Source of the DNA: Bdellovibrionales bacterium
GTDB taxonomy: Bacteria; Bdellovibrionota_C; UBA2361; SZUA-149; JAGRAN01
DNA: 36,114 bases
NCBI GenBank assembly: GCA_020434585.1
Contig: JAGRAN010000077.1
Span: forward strand, 1-36,114
Direction of reading: 5' to 3'
Part shown: positions 7,729 through 34,683 of the stretch, piece by piece
Layout of the letters: the number at the start of each line of letters is the position of its first letter
Numbering within the stretch: position 1 is the first letter of the stretch
Made by a program: the position numbers and the translations under genes
Notes under the pieces: generated by a model
Databases searched by the model: none
What the model was told of the DNA's origin: nothing
The model's input: only the letters and a program-made list of their open reading frames with translations

Positions 7729-9597
7729 GTGAAATCGATTCTGCGAAACGCTATTTTTTTCGTATTTGGTGCGATCATCGCAGTTCTACTCGTGCGCCAG
7801 GGCTTCTTCGCCGACGCAGCCGATCAGATTTCCGCCAGTCTTAGTCCAGCGCAGTCGACTGCTGAATCAATTGATTCTACCCCAGCCCCAGAAGTCGCTG
7901 CACCTGTTGAAACCGCGGCTTCCAGCAGTGATGTTTTGATGTCTGCCAGCAGCGTCGCTCCGGAACTGCGTGATCCGAAAACCGACCCCGCCAAGCGCGT
8001 TCGAATTCTGCGAGCGGCCTTGGAGGAGGGAACAATTGATTCGCTCGAATTGGTTGCTGAAGACTTTGTTGCGAGCTTTCCAGAATATCAAACCCGAATT
8101 CGACCTGCACTTGAAGAACAGGCGCTTCAGAGCTTGCTATCGCGAATGACCTATCAGGACCGCTGGGCTTGGCCCCAGGCAACCCATAGCGAAAATGGCT
8201 CTCCGAGCGAAGCCCGCCTGTATGTTGATGATGTTTTTTCAGTGAATCCTTGGCTGGGCCGGAAGCTCGAAACTACCGCAGTTTTACTCTATGGCTTGGA
8301 GCGAGCAACTGCGCAGGGACAAGTTTTTAACGAGCGGATTTTCCTTAAGAGTGCACAAGCTTCGGCGCAAGAACTCGCCGCTAAGTCTCACCGGTTGCCG
8401 CTGCAGTCGGCCGAGCATTTGTTCGATCCTAGCATGCTGAATGACCCGGGCTTTATTACAGTTTTTGAGCGCGAGCGTGCATCAGCCGTTGCGCGTCATG
8501 TTCTGCGTGGTCCCGGAGATATCTCGGCGAACATGCTGCTGCTGCATTCTGTTGCTCCGGAGTCGATTACTCCCGCGTTCGAACGCGCTGTTACCGCCGT
8601 TGTGATGCATCTGGCTGAGAATGCGGATGCTAAAGAGCGGATGGCGATTCTGGACTGGGAGTTAGAGCATGATGCAATGACGCGCTTTGTTGACGAGCTG
8701 CCGCAGCTGCGAAAAATGCTAGCGGAGCTTTACATCCTAGGAACATTGGATGCGGTTGCGCGCGAGGATCTTGATCGTTCGGTGGCTTACATTCGTGAGT
8801 CTTTGACGATTAAGCGCGGCCTATCTTTGCAGCGCGAAGTGCTTGCGAAACTCGGCATCAACGAACGTCAAATTATGGCCACACCGCTTGCCGCTGAGGA
8901 GCTCGCTCCTGCCGAAGTTCTGGCTGAAGCGCCGCAGGCTGCCGCTGCGGAACCAGAGGTGAAAAAGGCCGAAGAGCCGCGCCAGACCAGTATGCCCGAA
9001 AGCATAACAGCTTCGATTGCCGCGACAAAAGCAGCAGTGGAAGAAGCTGCGACGCAGAATTTCGATCCAGCGAAGGACGGTGAAATTAGCTGGTTCTTCA
9101 TGGCAGTGATGCTGCTGATTTTCATCGGTGTTCCGGCTGGAATAATGTATGCCGTGAACAGAGTTCGCGTCGACGGCACTCCGTCTGCACAGCACGATGA
9201 CAGTTTCGAAGACTTGGAGATCGACCCAAGTTGGAACATTGGTACCGCCGCTAAATCCGCTCCTGCGCCGAGTGTAGAAGGCGGATTTGATGACGACGAC
9301 TTGTTCGGACCAATCGCCGCTGTCGACGTGCGAGACATCGCAGTTGCTGCGAAGAAGAGCCGTGACGATGAGCGTTCGTCTGGTCGAGCGAAGAAGCGCG
9401 GTCTGCGTGATGAAATCGAAGTTGAGAACCCTTCTAAGTCGAATGGAGCTAGTTCAGCGCAGAGTTCCTCAGGCGGTGGCCCAAAACGCAAGGCCCCGCG
9501 AACCGAAGAGCACGCTGATGATTCCGAGTCTTCTCAGGCCCTTCCCAGGCGCCGAGGAGCCATGCCGGGGCCGCGAAGAAGAGCTGCCTCCGCGTAA
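7729..9597 (+). CDS. Large two-TM protein with helical domain and charged disordered tail, unknown function
   Basis: I cannot assign a family. The 622-residue product begins (GTG) with a membrane helix at about residues 5-25 (LRNAIFFVFGAIIAVLLV). A Pro/Ala/Ser-rich linker follows to about 80, then a mainly helical domain at about 85-375. A second Ala/Pro/Glu-rich linker leads to a second helix at about 453-477 (WFFMAVMLLIFIGVPAGIMYAV). The last 145 residues are low complexity: an acidic patch GGFDDDDLF, then alternating acidic and strongly basic stretches ending in GPRRRAASA. If the N-terminus is inside, the helical domain is periplasmic and the tail cytoplasmic. The start is uncertain because no clear ribosome site precedes the GTG. 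Linkers of this kind suggest a protein spanning the envelope as a scaffold; that is inference. Confidence 0.7.
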   Translation: MKSILRNAIFFVFGAIIAVLLVRQGFFADAADQISASLSPAQSTAESIDSTPAPEVAAPVETAASSSDVLMSASSVAPELRDPKTDPAKRVRILRAALEEGTIDSLELVAEDFVASFPEYQTRIRPALEEQALQSLLSRMTYQDRWAWPQATHSENGSPSEARLYVDDVFSVNPWLGRKLETTAVLLYGLERATAQGQVFNERIFLKSAQASAQELAAKSHRLPLQSAEHLFDPSMLNDPGFITVFERERASAVARHVLRGPGDISANMLLLHSVAPESITPAFERAVTAVVMHLAENADAKERMAILDWELEHDAMTRFVDELPQLRKMLAELYILGTLDAVAREDLDRSVAYIRESLTIKRGLSLQREVLAKLGINERQIMATPLAAEELAPAEVLAEAPQAAAAEPEVKKAEEPRQTSMPESITASIAATKAAVEEAATQNFDPAKDGEISWFFMAVMLLIFIGVPAGIMYAVNRVRVDGTPSAQHDDSFEDLEIDPSWNIGTAAKSAPAPSVEGGFDDDDLFGPIAAVDVRDIAVAAKKSRDDERSSGRAKKRGLRDEIEVENPSKSNGASSAQSSSGGGPKRKAPRTEEHADDSESSQALPRRRGAMPGPRRRAASA

Positions 9598-9758
9598 GTG
9601 CCTATAATTTAACACAATAAATTTTCACTAAGCCCAATAATTTCCGCGCTAGATTGCTAAGTTAAGTCAGCGCTAGGACGTTAATATTACTGTAGGAATA
9701 TGCAGTGGGCTGTCGGGCCTTCAGGTCCATGCCGGCAACAAGGATGTGCTGCTAAGCG

Positions 9759-12700
9759 ATGACTTTAATTAACAACATTAACGGGTCCTTGATTACGAAT
9801 CTCTCGGGAGGGAGTTCTGCGTCTTCTGCATCTGGCAATTCTACCATTAACGGCAAGGGAGTCAGCGCTTCTTTCGGCGGCGATCGGGTTAGCTTGCAGT
9901 CGGGACTTGCTGCTGCGAAACAAGCTTTTACTAACTCCTTCATCCGCACCGGCGATGCATTTTCGAAGTTTCAAGTAACTCAGCAGGCCGTTGGTTCACT
10001 ACTCAAGCTCACTGATGAATTGATTGACCTGGCAGAACGTGCGTCTGATCCACAGTCTACTTCTCAGGAACGCTCTCGCATAAATTCTCAGTTTCAAGTT
10101 AAGCGAAAAGATTTCACCGATATCCTCGACGAGACAAAGGTTGGAGGCGTGGATTTGCTTGACAAGTCCGACTTGGCCGGAGTGCTGAAAAATGCCGGAA
10201 TTGACCCGGAAGCAGCGACATTCCTATCGCAGACATTTCGCAGCGTGGCCGGCTCAGACAATGTTGTTGGATTCGCAAGGCTCGTTTCAGAGCCGCTTGA
10301 TGCGCCAGTTATAATTACTGGCACCAATGAAAAAATCATTGTGGGCACTGTAACTACGTCGCGCATTAGCGGAGAAACGGGAAGCGGAGGTGCTGGTGTT
10401 GTCGGCGGACAATTGCTCGACAACATTTCGCTTTCCGACACTTTAACTTCCTACTTTAATACAGCAACTGATTACGGCAGCAATCCGGCTGAAGTTTTGT
10501 CGATTCAGCTGGCGGACGAGAACGGTGTTAGCGGTGATTCCGTTATAAAAAGTTACAACCAATCAATCGTAATGCTCGACAGAGCCGATACGGGTGTTGC
10601 TTTAGCTGTTATCGGCGATGGTGAAAACGCAAGACTCGAACTGTACGACACGACTACGGCGAATGCGGCCGCACCAGTTTTCGAAATCGGCGATTCCGCT
10701 ACTTTGCAAAACGTTAGCGGAGCGATCGATGACGGCGGAAACTACTTTGCGTACTACGACGGGGCTACGATTAAATTCGGAAACACTGTCGAGTATGTCG
10801 ACAACGGAGGAGCCGCAATTTATGGCTTCGACGGCGCTGTGGACGGAGGAATCGTAGTGGGTGAGGGCGGCTTCGCGTTTGTTAGTTCGTCCGTCGATTT
10901 TGGCGGGGACGGCGTAACTAAAGATTTGTTTTTTGTTAACGGCTTTGACAACAACGCAACGATTACCAATGTGACTAACGGAGGCTACGGCGATATCGAT
11001 TTAGACACAGTTGATATCTCGAGCACCGGCACTTCGCTTATCTTCGCACCAAATCAGGGCACGCTCAGTGTCTATGATATCGAGGCACAGAATATTACTG
11101 ACTTGGTAGACATCGACGGAGTTGAGGCCGCTGCAATCAACAAAAGTGGTTCCGGTGTATCTGTAGCAGTTCTTGGCGACGACGGTGATATTCATGTTCA
11201 AATTTTTGCAGTTTCAGGTGGAACTGCGACTTTGCAAAGTGAAGTCGATTTAAATCTGGGTTCTGAAAGCGGAGTCGTTCAAGATGTGTCAATCAACGAT
11301 GCCGGAACTTCAGCCGCTTTCGTTATCGATGGCAGCTACTTGGAAGGAGCGGATGAAGTCTTTCTCCTGCAAAATTCTGGAGGTGGTGCCCGTGAGGAAA
11401 CGATTGATATTAATGGCAGCACCTATACTTTCGACGAGGTGGACGGCGATATCATCCGAGTTGAGCAGCTTACTGAGAGTTCCGGCGATGACGAGGTAAA
11501 TAAAGCATTTATTGATAATTCTTCAGATGATGTAGTGTATTTTTCAGCGACCGCGGAACTAAACGGTACAGTCGCGCCCGGGCTGGCTAAAGTTACAACC
11601 TCTGATTTAAATGTAAACGGCGCGACTCAAGTAACAACTGATCAGCGCGCCTTTGCTTTTCTGTCGCTTAGTGACGACGGGCAGAATGCAGTTACAATAC
11701 GGCGAATTGAAGATGGTTCGTTTAAACTAGATTTGTTTAATTTAAACACCCAAACAGTTGTCGATAGTTTTGCGGTTACTACTGAAAATCCTTTTAACCC
11801 GACCAGTGATATTCAGACGGCAATTTCAGCAGACGGAACGAGCGCAGTTATTCGCGGAATAGGTGCCGTTTCTGATGGCTCCGATACGCTGTATTTTGCC
11901 GACGGCGACGTGCAAATCAACACCGGAGAAACTGAGGGAGCTATTGCGCTCAGTGATGTCTCCACGGTTTTTTTCAGCGATGCGACGGAGTTCGGTGCGA
12001 GTGACGGGGTTTATGACCTAATAGTTGGTTTGGGAAACACGGCTACTGATCTTAATACGAATACGTCTTTCGACCGCTACACCTTATCAAGCGGCGATAC
12101 ATTTAACACTGACATTCTGTCTGTGTCGCAGGATGGATCAAAGATCGCGACTTCCGCAGCTGAATCGGGTGCTTTGGTGATAGTTGATACTAACACTGGC
12201 GAGGTCCTTGAGTTTGAAACCTCTAATACCGTTCAAGCTGTCTCCATCAGCGACGATGGATCTCGTGTGGCGGTCATCGGAGGCACGGATGCTAGTCAGA
12301 CGCTAGTTGTTTACCAGGTTTCTAACGAACCTGGGACAAATGACTTGAAAGTAGAGGCTCTGTATGTTGAGCGAACCGGAACTCATCTGTTCGACAACGT
12401 TCAGATAAACGGGGACGGAACGATTGTTAGCGCAACCGGTCATTTCAACACAGGCACTCCGACTCAAGAGCTTTTTGTCTACTCCTCGAAAGAAGATTTT
12501 CAACAGGGCTTTGAGCAAGTAAGCAGTGTCGAACCACCAGTCGATCCGCAAACAGGCAGCAACCCTTTAAATCAGGATCTCTCTACGATTGGCGGCGCAC
12601 AGATTGCAGCAAAAACTCTCAACGAACTACGAGATGTCATCGCGGACGATTTGGCTAAAGTTGACTCAATAGTTGAAGAGCTTCGCGGTGCGGTTGAGTT

Positions 12701-12872
12701 CGCCTTGGCTGGCGCTAGGGCATTCGACGCAGCTTCTGGCCGCTCCGATGTGCCAAGCGCTGAGAAGTTAGCCAGTGACCTAGTATCCCAAATCCGAAAC
12801 GCGACCGGCGATTCGCTGCTTGGTACTCACAGCGGCTTGGACCAGCTGCTCGCCAAGGAACTTCTCGGCTAA
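9759..12872 (+). CDS. Flagellin-like protein with large beta-propeller-like insert
   Basis: The product has 1037 residues and no signal peptide. Residues about 50-140 resemble the flagellin N-terminal helical domain: a long amphipathic helix, then LIDLAERASDPQSTSQERSR and INSQFQVKRKDFTDIL, closing with GGVDLLD. This matches in order the flagellin pattern of QELAVQA-like helix, INxEFxxLxxEI and FNGxxLLDG. Residues about 963-1010 resemble the C-terminal helix (QDLSTIGGAQIAAKTLNEL and VDSIVEELRGAV). Between them lie about 800 Asp/Gly/Thr-rich residues of beta character. They contain recurring blade motifs such as SISDDGSRVAVIGG, VSQDGSKIATSA and AISADGTSAVI at about 40-55 residue spacing, as in TolB/YVTN/WD-like propellers. 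It may be a filament subunit or hook-associated-like protein displaying a propeller. Two glycosyltransferase genes follow immediately and could modify it. Confidence 0.75.
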   Translation: MTLINNINGSLITNLSGGSSASSASGNSTINGKGVSASFGGDRVSLQSGLAAAKQAFTNSFIRTGDAFSKFQVTQQAVGSLLKLTDELIDLAERASDPQSTSQERSRINSQFQVKRKDFTDILDETKVGGVDLLDKSDLAGVLKNAGIDPEAATFLSQTFRSVAGSDNVVGFARLVSEPLDAPVIITGTNEKIIVGTVTTSRISGETGSGGAGVVGGQLLDNISLSDTLTSYFNTATDYGSNPAEVLSIQLADENGVSGDSVIKSYNQSIVMLDRADTGVALAVIGDGENARLELYDTTTANAAAPVFEIGDSATLQNVSGAIDDGGNYFAYYDGATIKFGNTVEYVDNGGAAIYGFDGAVDGGIVVGEGGFAFVSSSVDFGGDGVTKDLFFVNGFDNNATITNVTNGGYGDIDLDTVDISSTGTSLIFAPNQGTLSVYDIEAQNITDLVDIDGVEAAAINKSGSGVSVAVLGDDGDIHVQIFAVSGGTATLQSEVDLNLGSESGVVQDVSINDAGTSAAFVIDGSYLEGADEVFLLQNSGGGAREETIDINGSTYTFDEVDGDIIRVEQLTESSGDDEVNKAFIDNSSDDVVYFSATAELNGTVAPGLAKVTTSDLNVNGATQVTTDQRAFAFLSLSDDGQNAVTIRRIEDGSFKLDLFNLNTQTVVDSFAVTTENPFNPTSDIQTAISADGTSAVIRGIGAVSDGSDTLYFADGDVQINTGETEGAIALSDVSTVFFSDATEFGASDGVYDLIVGLGNTATDLNTNTSFDRYTLSSGDTFNTDILSVSQDGSKIATSAAESGALVIVDTNTGEVLEFETSNTVQAVSISDDGSRVAVIGGTDASQTLVVYQVSNEPGTNDLKVEALYVERTGTHLFDNVQINGDGTIVSATGHFNTGTPTQELFVYSSKEDFQQGFEQVSSVEPPVDPQTGSNPLNQDLSTIGGAQIAAKTLNELRDVIADDLAKVDSIVEELRGAVEFALAGARAFDAASGRSDVPSAEKLASDLVSQIRNATGDSLLGTHSGLDQLLAKELLG

Positions 12873-28655: not shown

Positions 28656-29564
28656 TTAGCTGTCTGTGAGCAGCAGGGTGCCGCAGCCTTCGTTCGTGAA
28701 AATTTCTTTTAGCAGCGAATCGGGAGTCAAGCCGTTGACAATGTGGGCTCTGGCAATTCCTCCTTCGAGCGCATCGATGCACGCCTGAACTTTCGGCATC
28801 ATCCCGCCTCCGATTGAACCGTCACGCACGAGCTGTCCAATCTCGGCGATGGTCAGCTGTGAGCAGAGAGAATCGGGATTCTTAACATCGCTCATTACGC
28901 CGTCCACGTTCGAAAGCAAAACGTATTTTTCTGCTTTGATTGCCCTAGCTAGAGCGGATGCAACGGTATCTGCGTTTATGTTAAGCACCTGTCCGTCAAC
29001 GTCAGCTGCAAGCGAACAAACCACAGGGATGTAATCTCCGGCCAGGAGCTGGCTCAGCACTTCGGTGTTAATTTCGACGATGTCACCGACAAAGCCGAAA
29101 TCTACATTCTTAGTTTCGCCCGTAGCTTGATCGACCAACTGAGTAAGTGGACGTTTTACGGCGGTTATCAAATTACCGTCAACACCGCTTAAACCCGCAG
29201 CGGGAGTGTGATGTTTGCGAAAAGCGGCGACTAAATTAGTGTTAACGGTGCCATTGAAGGTCATTTTCGCGACTTCAAGCATTGCTGCCGAGGTAATGCG
29301 TCGGCCGTTAATCTTTGGCGATTCAATGCCCAGACGCTCTGCGAGTTCCGTCGCCTGTGGTCCGCTGCCGTGAACTAAAACAATCTTAATTCCAACTTGA
29401 TAGAGCAAAGAAAGCTGTTCGATAATATTGTCGAGCGCAGTTTCGTTCGAGCAAATTTCTCCGCCCAGCTTAACTACAAATACCTTTCCTTTGTAAGCAC
29501 GAATATACGGCACCGCAGTTTTTAGCAGTCCAATGTCGAGCACGCTGTTTACTGAAGTCATCAT
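28656..29564 (-). CDS. argB: Acetylglutamate kinase
   Basis: ArgB phosphorylates N-acetylglutamate, the second step of arginine synthesis. The 302 residues show the amino-acid-kinase fold: KVFVVKLGGEI (phosphate loop), IVLVHGSGPQATEL (substrate glycine loop), AAGLSGVDGNLI, and the ATP-side LNINADTVASALARAI followed by YVLLSNVDGVM. GGGMMPKVQACIDAL is the conserved C-terminal Lys segment. The start is ATG 29564 (a second ATG follows at 29561), overlapping the stop of the second argR-like gene as ATGA. It is the last gene of the minus-strand arginine operon. Confidence 0.95.
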   Translation of the reverse strand: MMTSVNSVLDIGLLKTAVPYIRAYKGKVFVVKLGGEICSNETALDNIIEQLSLLYQVGIKIVLVHGSGPQATELAERLGIESPKINGRRITSAAMLEVAKMTFNGTVNTNLVAAFRKHHTPAAGLSGVDGNLITAVKRPLTQLVDQATGETKNVDFGFVGDIVEINTEVLSQLLAGDYIPVVCSLAADVDGQVLNINADTVASALARAIKAEKYVLLSNVDGVMSDVKNPDSLCSQLTIAEIGQLVRDGSIGGGMMPKVQACIDALEGGIARAHIVNGLTPDSLLKEIFTNEGCGTLLLTDS

Positions 29565-30016
29565 CGGCTGTAATCGCTCTCTAGCTTCTCAATCACTTTT
29601 AGGACTGTTTCGGCGCCCAGTCCTTCATCTACGCAAATAAACACAGTGTCGTCACCTGCGACAATGCCAAGCACACCCTCAATAACGCCGCGATCAAGCG
29701 CTGCAGCGACAACGTTGGCGTGACCTGGGGGAGTCTTGAGCACGATCATATTGCCCGAGGCTCGTCGGCTCGTGACATAATCTCGCATTACCTGAAGAAA
29801 CGAAGCACCTTCACGTGAACCATCGACGACAGTTGCATAGCGCACGTTGGCGCCGTCACGAATTAAAACCGCTCCCAAATCCTCAAGGTCGCAGTGAACA
29901 ACGAGCTCCGTGACGTTGTATCCGTTCTGGTTGAGTAAGGAGACTGCAGATTGCATCGAGTCAACTTTGCCGTCATCGATCAGCTTTTTTAGTGCTGCCT
30001 GCCGATCAATTTTCAT
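29561..30016 (-). CDS. ArgR paralogue with altered DNA-recognition helix
   Basis: The 151-residue product has ArgR architecture: an N-terminal winged-helix region (RQAALKKLIDDGKV ... GYNVT), a linker, and the C-terminal arginine-binding/hexamer domain with VLGIVAGDDTVFICV (GDDT at 121-124). In active ArgR the recognition helix carries Ser-Arg (here in the first copy, SISRD). In this copy the aligned residues are VVHCD (39-43), so both are lost. By analogy with Lactococcus, where ArgR and AhrC work together, it could form mixed hexamers and tune repression; that is inference. It overlaps argF and argB by ATGA on both sides and has a strong AGGAGG inside the end of argF. Confidence 0.85.
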   Translation of the reverse strand: MKIDRQAALKKLIDDGKVDSMQSAVSLLNQNGYNVTELVVHCDLEDLGAVLIRDGANVRYATVVDGSREGASFLQVMRDYVTSRRASGNMIVLKTPPGHANVVAAALDRGVIEGVLGIVAGDDTVFICVDEGLGAETVLKVIEKLESDYSR

Positions 30017-33184: not shown

Positions 33185-34234
33185 CTACTTTTCTACAAAG
33201 TTAACGATGAAATTTCCGAGTTTCTCGGGGTCCAGTCGGGCATTAATTGCTTCAATGCCAAGGTTTTTTGCGACAAAGTCAGTGCCCGCGCTGTTGTCTG
33301 TTACCGGTCCGCTGACAACATCGACTTGCAAATCAAATTTCTCTTCGAGAAATTTCTTGCCGCCCCATGTTCCCACGGGGTCTGCAGCGCAGAGTATCAA
33401 AGCAGCTTTGCGGGCCATTAAGTCGCTGCTGCTGAGAATTTCCTGTACGCCGTAGGTTCCCATGATACCGTCGCCCAGTTCCGCTACGATAATCTCTGCG
33501 CCGTTTTCAATCAGGTGAGCGAAAATGTTTTTAGTAGTCTGTACCGCGCATTCACCGCTAGTGGTGACAATGCCTGCGTCGACGAAGGATGCGGCGGGTG
33601 CTGCACCGAAATCCTGCATTTCTAGCAGGTCGCGCTGCAGGGAAACCCCAGTCAGCTTGCAGCCGCCGACCTTCTTGCCGGTCTTGGCTATTGCGCGAAC
33701 GAGCTCGCAGGCGACGCGGGTTTTTCCGCTGTTCATGCATGTACCCGCGATGTAAACAATTGGGACAGGTTTGTATTCAGAGAAATTCTTAGCAGCGGGG
33801 AGAGCTCCTTGCGAAACGTGCGCTGGAATTCCGGAACGGCTGCCGAACTCGGGAAACACCAAAACAGATCCCAGAATTTCTACGTCAAACGGCTTGCCGA
33901 AGTCGGGGTTATTCGACGTGCATTTGCCGATTACCCCGCCGGTATTCAGTACCTGGAGCGTATCTCCGACCGCAACGCTTTGCGGCACAACTCCGGCGTA
34001 GCCATGAAGAGCGTTACGCTTTCGGAGAACACCGACAATGATATCGCCTTCGTGTAGGGTGACGAATCGACCGCTGCGGTCCTCAAGCTTGTCATACACA
34101 GCTTTATTGTGAAGGACTTTAGCGGCAACGACGTAGCCTTCTTCTGCGGTTATTTCATCTTGAACGCGCAAATCGCGTTTAAGCGGAACGTTCTTGGTGC
34201 TGGACGCAATTTTATTGGCAATTACTCTTTTCAT
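33185..34234 (-). CDS. P-loop NTPase of unknown function embedded in the arginine operon
   Basis: The 349-residue product has two parts. Residues about 20-130 are beta-rich (GRFVTLHEGDIIVGVL, VGDTLQVLNTGGVIGK), perhaps a barrel. From about 157 a nucleotide-binding domain begins with the P-loop GTCMNSGKT (164-172), followed by helix VACELVRAIAKTG, strand-turn VGGCKLTGVS, and an acidic Walker-B-like strand IIVAELGDG (248-256). The layout recalls the dethiobiotin synthetase/MobB/DUF1611 group. One DUF1611 protein, DgcN, was reported to acetylate D-glutamate. The gene overlaps argR by 4 bases and is 2 bases from argC, so it belongs to the operon, where no argA or argJ is seen. An acetylglutamate-related or other arginine role is possible but unproven. 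Confidence 0.75.
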   Translation of the reverse strand: MKRVIANKIASSTKNVPLKRDLRVQDEITAEEGYVVAAKVLHNKAVYDKLEDRSGRFVTLHEGDIIVGVLRKRNALHGYAGVVPQSVAVGDTLQVLNTGGVIGKCTSNNPDFGKPFDVEILGSVLVFPEFGSRSGIPAHVSQGALPAAKNFSEYKPVPIVYIAGTCMNSGKTRVACELVRAIAKTGKKVGGCKLTGVSLQRDLLEMQDFGAAPAASFVDAGIVTTSGECAVQTTKNIFAHLIENGAEIIVAELGDGIMGTYGVQEILSSSDLMARKAALILCAADPVGTWGGKKFLEEKFDLQVDVVSGPVTDNSAGTDFVAKNLGIEAINARLDPEKLGNFIVNFVEK

Positions 34235-34683
34235 GATGGAAACTCTGCGCCGGGAAGGGCTGCGTGTTTTAGGTGGTTGGCAATTTGTGCTTGAGCAGAC
34301 TTACTGCCTGTCGCAATGAATATAGTGTCGTCTCCCGCAACGGTTCCAACGATGCCGTCAAGGTCCATGTCATCAATCGCGGCGGCTACAACAGCAGCAG
34401 CTCCGACCTTAGTTCTGACAACAAGCATGTGTGGTCCGGCTGGAGCGACCGAGTGAATCATGATCGCCGCGCCGCTGCTCTCCGCGCTTGTAAAGCTGCC
34501 TGCTGGGATGTATTTTCCAGAGAGCTTTACTACTCCCAGTTCTTTGAAGTCCCGGCTGATGCTGGGCTGGGTTACGGCGAAGCCCTGGCGCTGCATAGCT
34601 TCAACGATGTCGGCCTGACTGAAAAAATTGTTTTGTTCCAGTAGGTTAACCAGCGCTTCTTGTCTTTTTTGCTTCTCTTCCAT
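34231..34683 (-). CDS. argR: Arginine repressor
   Basis: This is a 150-residue transcription factor with N-terminal winged helix and C-terminal hexamer domain. The recognition helix is intact ([18 protein letters not shown], Ser-Arg at 43-44). The arginine-binding motif is present as [14 protein letters not shown] (GDDT 117-120). It is the first gene of the minus-strand arginine operon, divergent from argG, with ARG-box-like sites just upstream. It is therefore likely to repress both itself with its operon and argG when arginine is abundant. The next gene overlaps it by ATGA. Confidence 0.93.

Follow-up and report, generated by a model that had tools for sequence, protein, structure and literature searches.

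The gene at positions 9759-12872 of the window (the whole stretch of 36,114 nt that was analysed) is an intact open reading frame that starts with ATG and gives a product of 1037 aa (Table 1). Because the frame is intact and a full-length ortholog with 60% identity is present in one other genome of the same genus, it is a real conserved gene. The protein contains no Cys and no Trp and has a pI of about 4.05; the zero Cys content and the low pI are common to this protein and the large flagellins of its own genome, and such an acidic, Cys-free chain would suit export in the unfolded state. Inspection of the N-terminus by eye shows no signal peptide, in agreement with the sequence-only reading of this DNA. 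A PDB sequence search with the protein gave no useful match, and a search of its own genome with the whole 1037-aa sequence found no other similar propeller protein. The protein looks like a distant cousin of flagellin, with the surface part replaced by apparently two propeller-shaped domains.

Besides this gene, no flagellar gene lies in the window. The earlier statement that no flagellar genes are nearby thus holds for the window but not for the genome, which has 23 Flagellin_N matches (with about 20 ordinary flagellins) as well as flgK and flgL. The second of the two downstream genes (429 aa) encodes a glycosyltransferase by Pfam and the first (466 aa) only resembles one; it is possible that these genes glycosylate flagellin. 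Elsewhere in the window, two ArgR-type arginine repressor genes (29561-30016 and 34231-34683) lie inside an arginine biosynthesis cluster.

Table 1. Features of the flagellin-like gene and its neighbours, in positions of the window
Feature	Positions	Strand	Basis
Upstream neighbour, membrane-anchored protein (by inspection), no Pfam match	7729..9597	+	adjoins the family gene in G001, G003 and G004
CsrA-type hairpin, core ACAAGGATGT at 9738-9747, AGGA in loop	9735..9749	+	leader sequence; also in ortholog
Whole gene, flagellin-like protein with apparent double propeller, 1037 aa	9759..12872	+	ORF reading and full-length same-genus ortholog
N-terminal helical domain, residues 1-180 (first helix short, followed by Ser/Gly linker and D1-like helices)	9759..10298	+	86% ortholog identity; helices of low-confidence model
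Flagellin_N (PF00669) match, residues 43-137	9885..10169	+	Pfam search, E 2.8e-5; genome search, 27.2 bits
Two extra helices closing the N-domain, residues 136-165, family-conserved NDLAGVLKxAGIDPEAA	10164..10253	+	family alignment; low-confidence model
Putative propeller A, about residues 185-565, borders approximate	10311..11453	+	insert self-alignment; blade motifs; 50% ortholog identity
Putative propeller B, about residues 566-930, about 7 blades, borders approximate	11454..12548	+	Foldseek and VIA-align matches; weak Pfam WD40-type matches
C-terminal helical domain, residues 933-1037, C-D1/D0-like	12555..12869	+	75% ortholog identity; profile match to flagellin C-ends; model helices
Two downstream genes, 466 and 429 aa	12935..15624	+	kept in G001 and G004

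In the low-confidence model, the helices of the N-domain are at residues 2-16, 46-63, 75-95, 102-125, 136-145 and 150-165, and those of the C-domain are at residues 946-992, 1001-1016 and 1025-1036. When the single protein is searched against Pfam, the Flagellin_N match has 24.6 bits, just under the cut-off of 26.6, and in the genome-wide search the score is over this cut-off. Moreover, when the profile of the insertless members of the family, as described below, is compared with the flagellins of the protein's own genome, the same N-terminal stretch is matched with a probability of 97.6% (E = 4e-12). Membership of FlgL was considered and rejected, with the hhalign probability against the genome's own FlgL being 1.2% and TIGR02550 being unmatched; this FlgL is located elsewhere, on contig C93, adjoining FlgK. 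At the other end, the 1037-aa protein has no match to Pfam Flagellin_C, and in profile-profile comparison the C-end profile of the family aligns collinearly with flagellin C-termini with a probability of 90.7% (E = 1.2e-6). The flagellin D1 pattern that had been noticed at the ends is thus borne out on sequence grounds, clearly at the N-end and probably, by profile comparison, at the C-end.

By contrast with the complete flagellins of the same genome, where the motif LSSGLRIN..DDAAG is present, this motif is absent from the 1037-aa protein and from the aligned family, and in the N-domain tree the family forms its own clade, apart from the flagellins and FlgL, with a support of 0.98. For these two reasons we regard the family as flagellin-like rather than flagellin in the strict sense, and the 1037-aa protein as a divergent flagellin-like paralogue that is a member of it. 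Since it is a divergent paralogue without this motif, it need not be a main filament subunit. With the motif missing and the first helix short, it may not polymerise in the way that flagellin does.

The family was searched for in 45 genomes of the class by means of a profile built from ten insertless members, with E below 1e-20 defining a member; canonical flagellins score weaker than 1e-18 with this profile. A member is present in 35 of the 45 genomes, that is, in 35 of the 41 with flagellins versus none of the four without a Flagellin_N match (p = 0.0014, which is optimistic, the genomes being related). The four flagellin-less genomes give no flagellar-grade FlhA match and retain other FHIPEP paralogs. 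Note also that genomes of the class have one or more FHIPEP paralogs besides the flagellar FlhA, also where flagellins are absent, an example in the present genome being G000:C2:22877-24682.

Genomes with the family have one or two of its genes, and most members are insertless proteins of about 300 aa, with the sizes ranging up to 4584 aa; in several genomes an insertless copy and an insert-bearing copy are present together. In G003 and G004 an insertless gene (301 and 291 aa) has the same upstream neighbours as the present gene, meaning that the gain or loss of the insert happened at an orthologous position. All inserts of the family occupy a single site. They measure 337-372 residues in five members, 692-736 in four members plus the present gene and about 1876 in two members, and lengths of 3608 and 4293 residues also occur. 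The site and the lengths, the insertless orthologs at the same locus and the link to flagellated genomes are read directly from the gene sequences. If a propeller takes up about 358 residues, these lengths correspond to one, two, about five, ten and twelve of them. The real evidence for whole units is the gap between 372 and 692; the larger lengths would fit many unit lengths of that order. The family thus seems to acquire its propellers as complete units at one fixed site. Two giant frames, one of 4584 aa (L044 2206-15960) and the other of 3892 aa (L069 3768-15446), have flagellin-like ends around about twelve and about ten propellers' worth of FG-GAP repeats, respectively. In addition, a 352-aa orphan of the present genome (L048 2660-3718, G000:C70) has weak flagellin N-terminal similarity and belongs neither to FlgL nor to the flagellin-like family.

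It might be argued that the flagellin ends are borrowed for export only and that the protein is a secreted adhesin, which is then shed or attaches to another part of the cell. We consider this unlikely. The divergent D0 and the location of the gene outside the flagellar gene clusters would agree with such an adhesin, but insertless members are kept throughout the class and the D1 halves are kept better than the insert, with the identity to the same-genus ortholog being 86% in the N-domain and 75% in the C-domain versus 50-54% in the insert. This difference would be expected of ends that are packed in an assembly and of a middle that is exposed, and it suggests that the ends still pack against something.

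Now we consider the insert of the present gene. SxDGxxxA-like motifs are observed six times versus 1.2 expected, a number that is reached in 3 of 2000 shuffles, and about 13 blade-like motifs, spaced by 42-72 residues, can be counted by eye, so the repeated blade motifs reported in the sequence-only reading are confirmed. The insert aligns with itself weakly (probability 18.6%) when shifted by about 365 residues, which is a propeller length, and weak Pfam WD40-type matches occur at residues 780-860. Two AlphaFold runs on shallow alignments of 5 and 2 rows gave low-confidence models with mean pLDDT of 46 and 49, the model of the second half (residues 552-928) having a pLDDT of 49 and a pTM of 0.52; the strand pattern of both low-confidence models agrees with repeated four-stranded blades of 40-55 residues. 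For the low-confidence model of the second half, the top Foldseek matches are all beta-propeller folds or propeller-containing complexes, including RACK1, TolB and a two-propeller protein, with TM about 0.4-0.5, and in VIA-align about 250 residues of the model match PROPPIN and S9-peptidase propellers with Z of 14-16. The propeller fold and the presence of two units are thus supported, and, as far as the motifs and the models indicate, the beta insert of about 750 residues is most likely composed of two tandem seven-bladed WD40/TolB-like propellers. The insert had been described before as one 800-residue propeller-like domain, of which the fold is supported while the number of propellers is probably two rather than one. 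The structure prediction that had been suggested as a check gives, at the above pLDDT values, helices at both ends, which may be paired as in flagellin D0/D1, and propeller-fold matches, of which the rings may be closed.

Several inserts of the family are FG-GAP repeats, the integrin-type propeller marked by DxNxDGxxD calcium loops, but that of the present gene is not, with no FG-GAP Pfam match being found in the 1037-aa protein. In profile comparison its homology to FG-GAP inserts or to the other family inserts is not significant (best probability 4.4%), implying that the propeller types may differ between members.

The FG-GAP propeller is also present in canonical flagellins. In about a dozen canonical flagellins of the present genome, with lengths of 614-648 aa, the hypervariable region is an FG-GAP beta-propeller, the D0/D1 being full and both Flagellin_N and Flagellin_C being matched (contigs C14, C27, C33, C56, C66, C91, C165, C176, C248 and C275 of G000; loci L096-L099, L101 and L108-L112). 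By profile, FG-GAP flagellin genes are present in 18 of the 45 class genomes, with 11 in the present genome and 21 in the richest. Among the family-bearing genomes, FG-GAP flagellins are found in 14 of the 17 with an insert-bearing member versus 3 of the 18 with insertless members only (p = 1.3e-4, counted by hand with kinship ignored). These flagellins strengthen the earlier idea of a filament decorated with binding domains. One canonical flagellin of 683 aa (L103, G000:C89:900-3015) has PD40/WD40-type propeller repeats instead of FG-GAP. Some FG-GAP flagellin genes of relatives have internal stop codons (G033:C76, G038:C24, G016:C14, G001:C36 and G044:C202), being perhaps decaying copies or assembly errors.

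The leader of the present gene is of the type that matches the CsrA binding consensus. Similar CsrA-type hairpins are present in 12 of 25 flagellin leaders versus 10 of 182 control genes, with none among the six small insertless flagellins of the 25. Within the same order they also occur in the leaders of 6 of 9 family genes. The scoring rule was set after the first leaders had been seen, and the p-values are thus optimistic. In distant family members the site is not enriched (2/18 or fewer). The stability of the leader hairpin of the present gene is not above that of shuffled sequences, and a scan of this leader for a sigma-28 promoter gave no signal above control genes. Many large flagellin leaders of G000 and G001 (L074-L092) have CsrA-type hairpins, often two per leader, and flgK, flgL, csrA and fliW are side by side on contig C93 of the present genome. 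As described in PMC4894983, the flagellin mRNA of Campylobacter is controlled by CsrA and FliW. Judged by these hairpins, the leader type of the present gene is common to the propeller flagellins.

With these results, the possibility of a chance resemblance, in which a propeller protein with coiled-coil ends is unrelated to flagellin, can be evaluated. The single-sequence Flagellin_N score, which is marginal, would allow it, but the profile matches at both ends, the link of the family to flagellated genomes and the leader type in common with flagellins all argue against it, and we consider it very improbable.

We therefore propose, with a probability of about 0.62, that the 1037-aa protein derives from flagellin and serves the flagellum as an accessory protein that displays its propellers as binding domains, most likely as a minor flagellum-associated subunit. 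In the model, the divergent D0/D1 ends would leave the cell by way of the flagellar type III apparatus and take their place within the filament or at one of its ends. Once outside, the two propellers would fold and stand out from the surface, where they would bind ligands in adhesion or recognition, while across the class whole propellers would be gained or lost at one fixed site. From the above data we infer the export route, the filament position, the surface display and the ligand binding. Counting against the accessory protein are the location of the gene outside any flagellar operon, the lack of a Flagellin_C Pfam match and of a sigma-28-like signal, the missing D0 motif with the short first helix, the poor structure models, and the leader hairpin, which is not kept in distant members and is no more stable than shuffles.

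Two sharper versions of the accessory-protein explanation can be considered. In the first one, the protein is a minor filament subunit proper, which is built into the shaft together with the FG-GAP flagellins by co-polymerisation, giving two-propeller units scattered on a propeller-coated filament. The co-occurrence of propeller-bearing family members with FG-GAP propeller flagellins, the leader type common with the latter and the D1 homology to flagellins are consistent with this version, but the canonical D0 motif is absent and a shaft could hardly accommodate those relatives that have about twelve propellers; we hold it to be plausible, at somewhat short of an even chance. In the second one, the protein is a low-copy junction, adaptor or tip-associated protein with a tip adhesin, being FlgL-like in position and not in family. 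This version is consistent with the clade separate from the flagellins and FlgL, with only one or two family genes per genome and with the very large inserts in some relatives. By contrast, ordinary flgK and flgL are already present in the genome, and we hold this version to be slightly less likely than the first.

It is noted that the 1037-aa protein has likenesses to several known systems. Canonical flagellin (FliC/Hag), with its hypervariable D2/D3 region, has D1-type N- and C-helices, as predicted for the present protein, with an insert between them, and likewise no Cys and a low pI, and the large flagellins of the present genome likewise have a CsrA-type leader; the 1037-aa protein differs in having neither the D0 motif LSSGLRIN..DDAAG nor a Flagellin_C Pfam match, in its extra helices before the insert and in its separate clade. 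The FG-GAP propeller flagellins found here also have flagellin ends around beta-propellers of about 350 residues, but their ends are canonical with one FG-GAP propeller, while the present protein would have divergent ends with two WD40/TolB-like propellers. To the WD40/TolB/PROPPIN-type seven-bladed propellers the likeness is in the blade motif and the fold matches, whereas the sequence similarity is weak and the function is not transferable. FlgL, at the hook-filament junction, is also a flagellin-related axial protein, but the FlgL of the present genome is beside FlgK and the profile match to it is negligible.

Sialidase, one of the domains named below, itself has a propeller fold, so a propeller on a filament would not be wholly without precedent. 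Domains known in the hypervariable region of flagellins include peptidase, vWFA and sialidase (PMC5595980). In flagellinolysin the hypervariable region has acquired a domain by which the filament surface takes on a new function, as would be the case here, but that domain is an HExxH metallopeptidase (PMC5595980), while the 1037-aa protein has neither HExxH nor a Pfam peptidase match. The giant flagellins of marine gammaproteobacteria, by which filaments are thickened, are similarly over 1000 aa with duplication of surface domains, but they have DE/DX inserts on canonical ends with no propeller reported (PMC6248924). In the open-access literature, we found no description of FG-GAP, VCBS, WD40-like or beta-propeller flagellins.

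Finally, we tentatively suggest, at less than even odds, that the filament of this class is a propeller-coated surface organelle, in which many one-propeller FG-GAP flagellins are joined by a dedicated flagellin-like partner with 0 to about 12 propellers, acquired or dropped as whole units, as a specialised adhesive or recognition element. Propeller-bearing flagellins would provide a natural test of the passage of large folded domains through the flagellar export channel. If the suggestion is true, then with up to about 20 propeller flagellins per genome and a family that adds propellers, a motility filament would have been turned into a binding surface.
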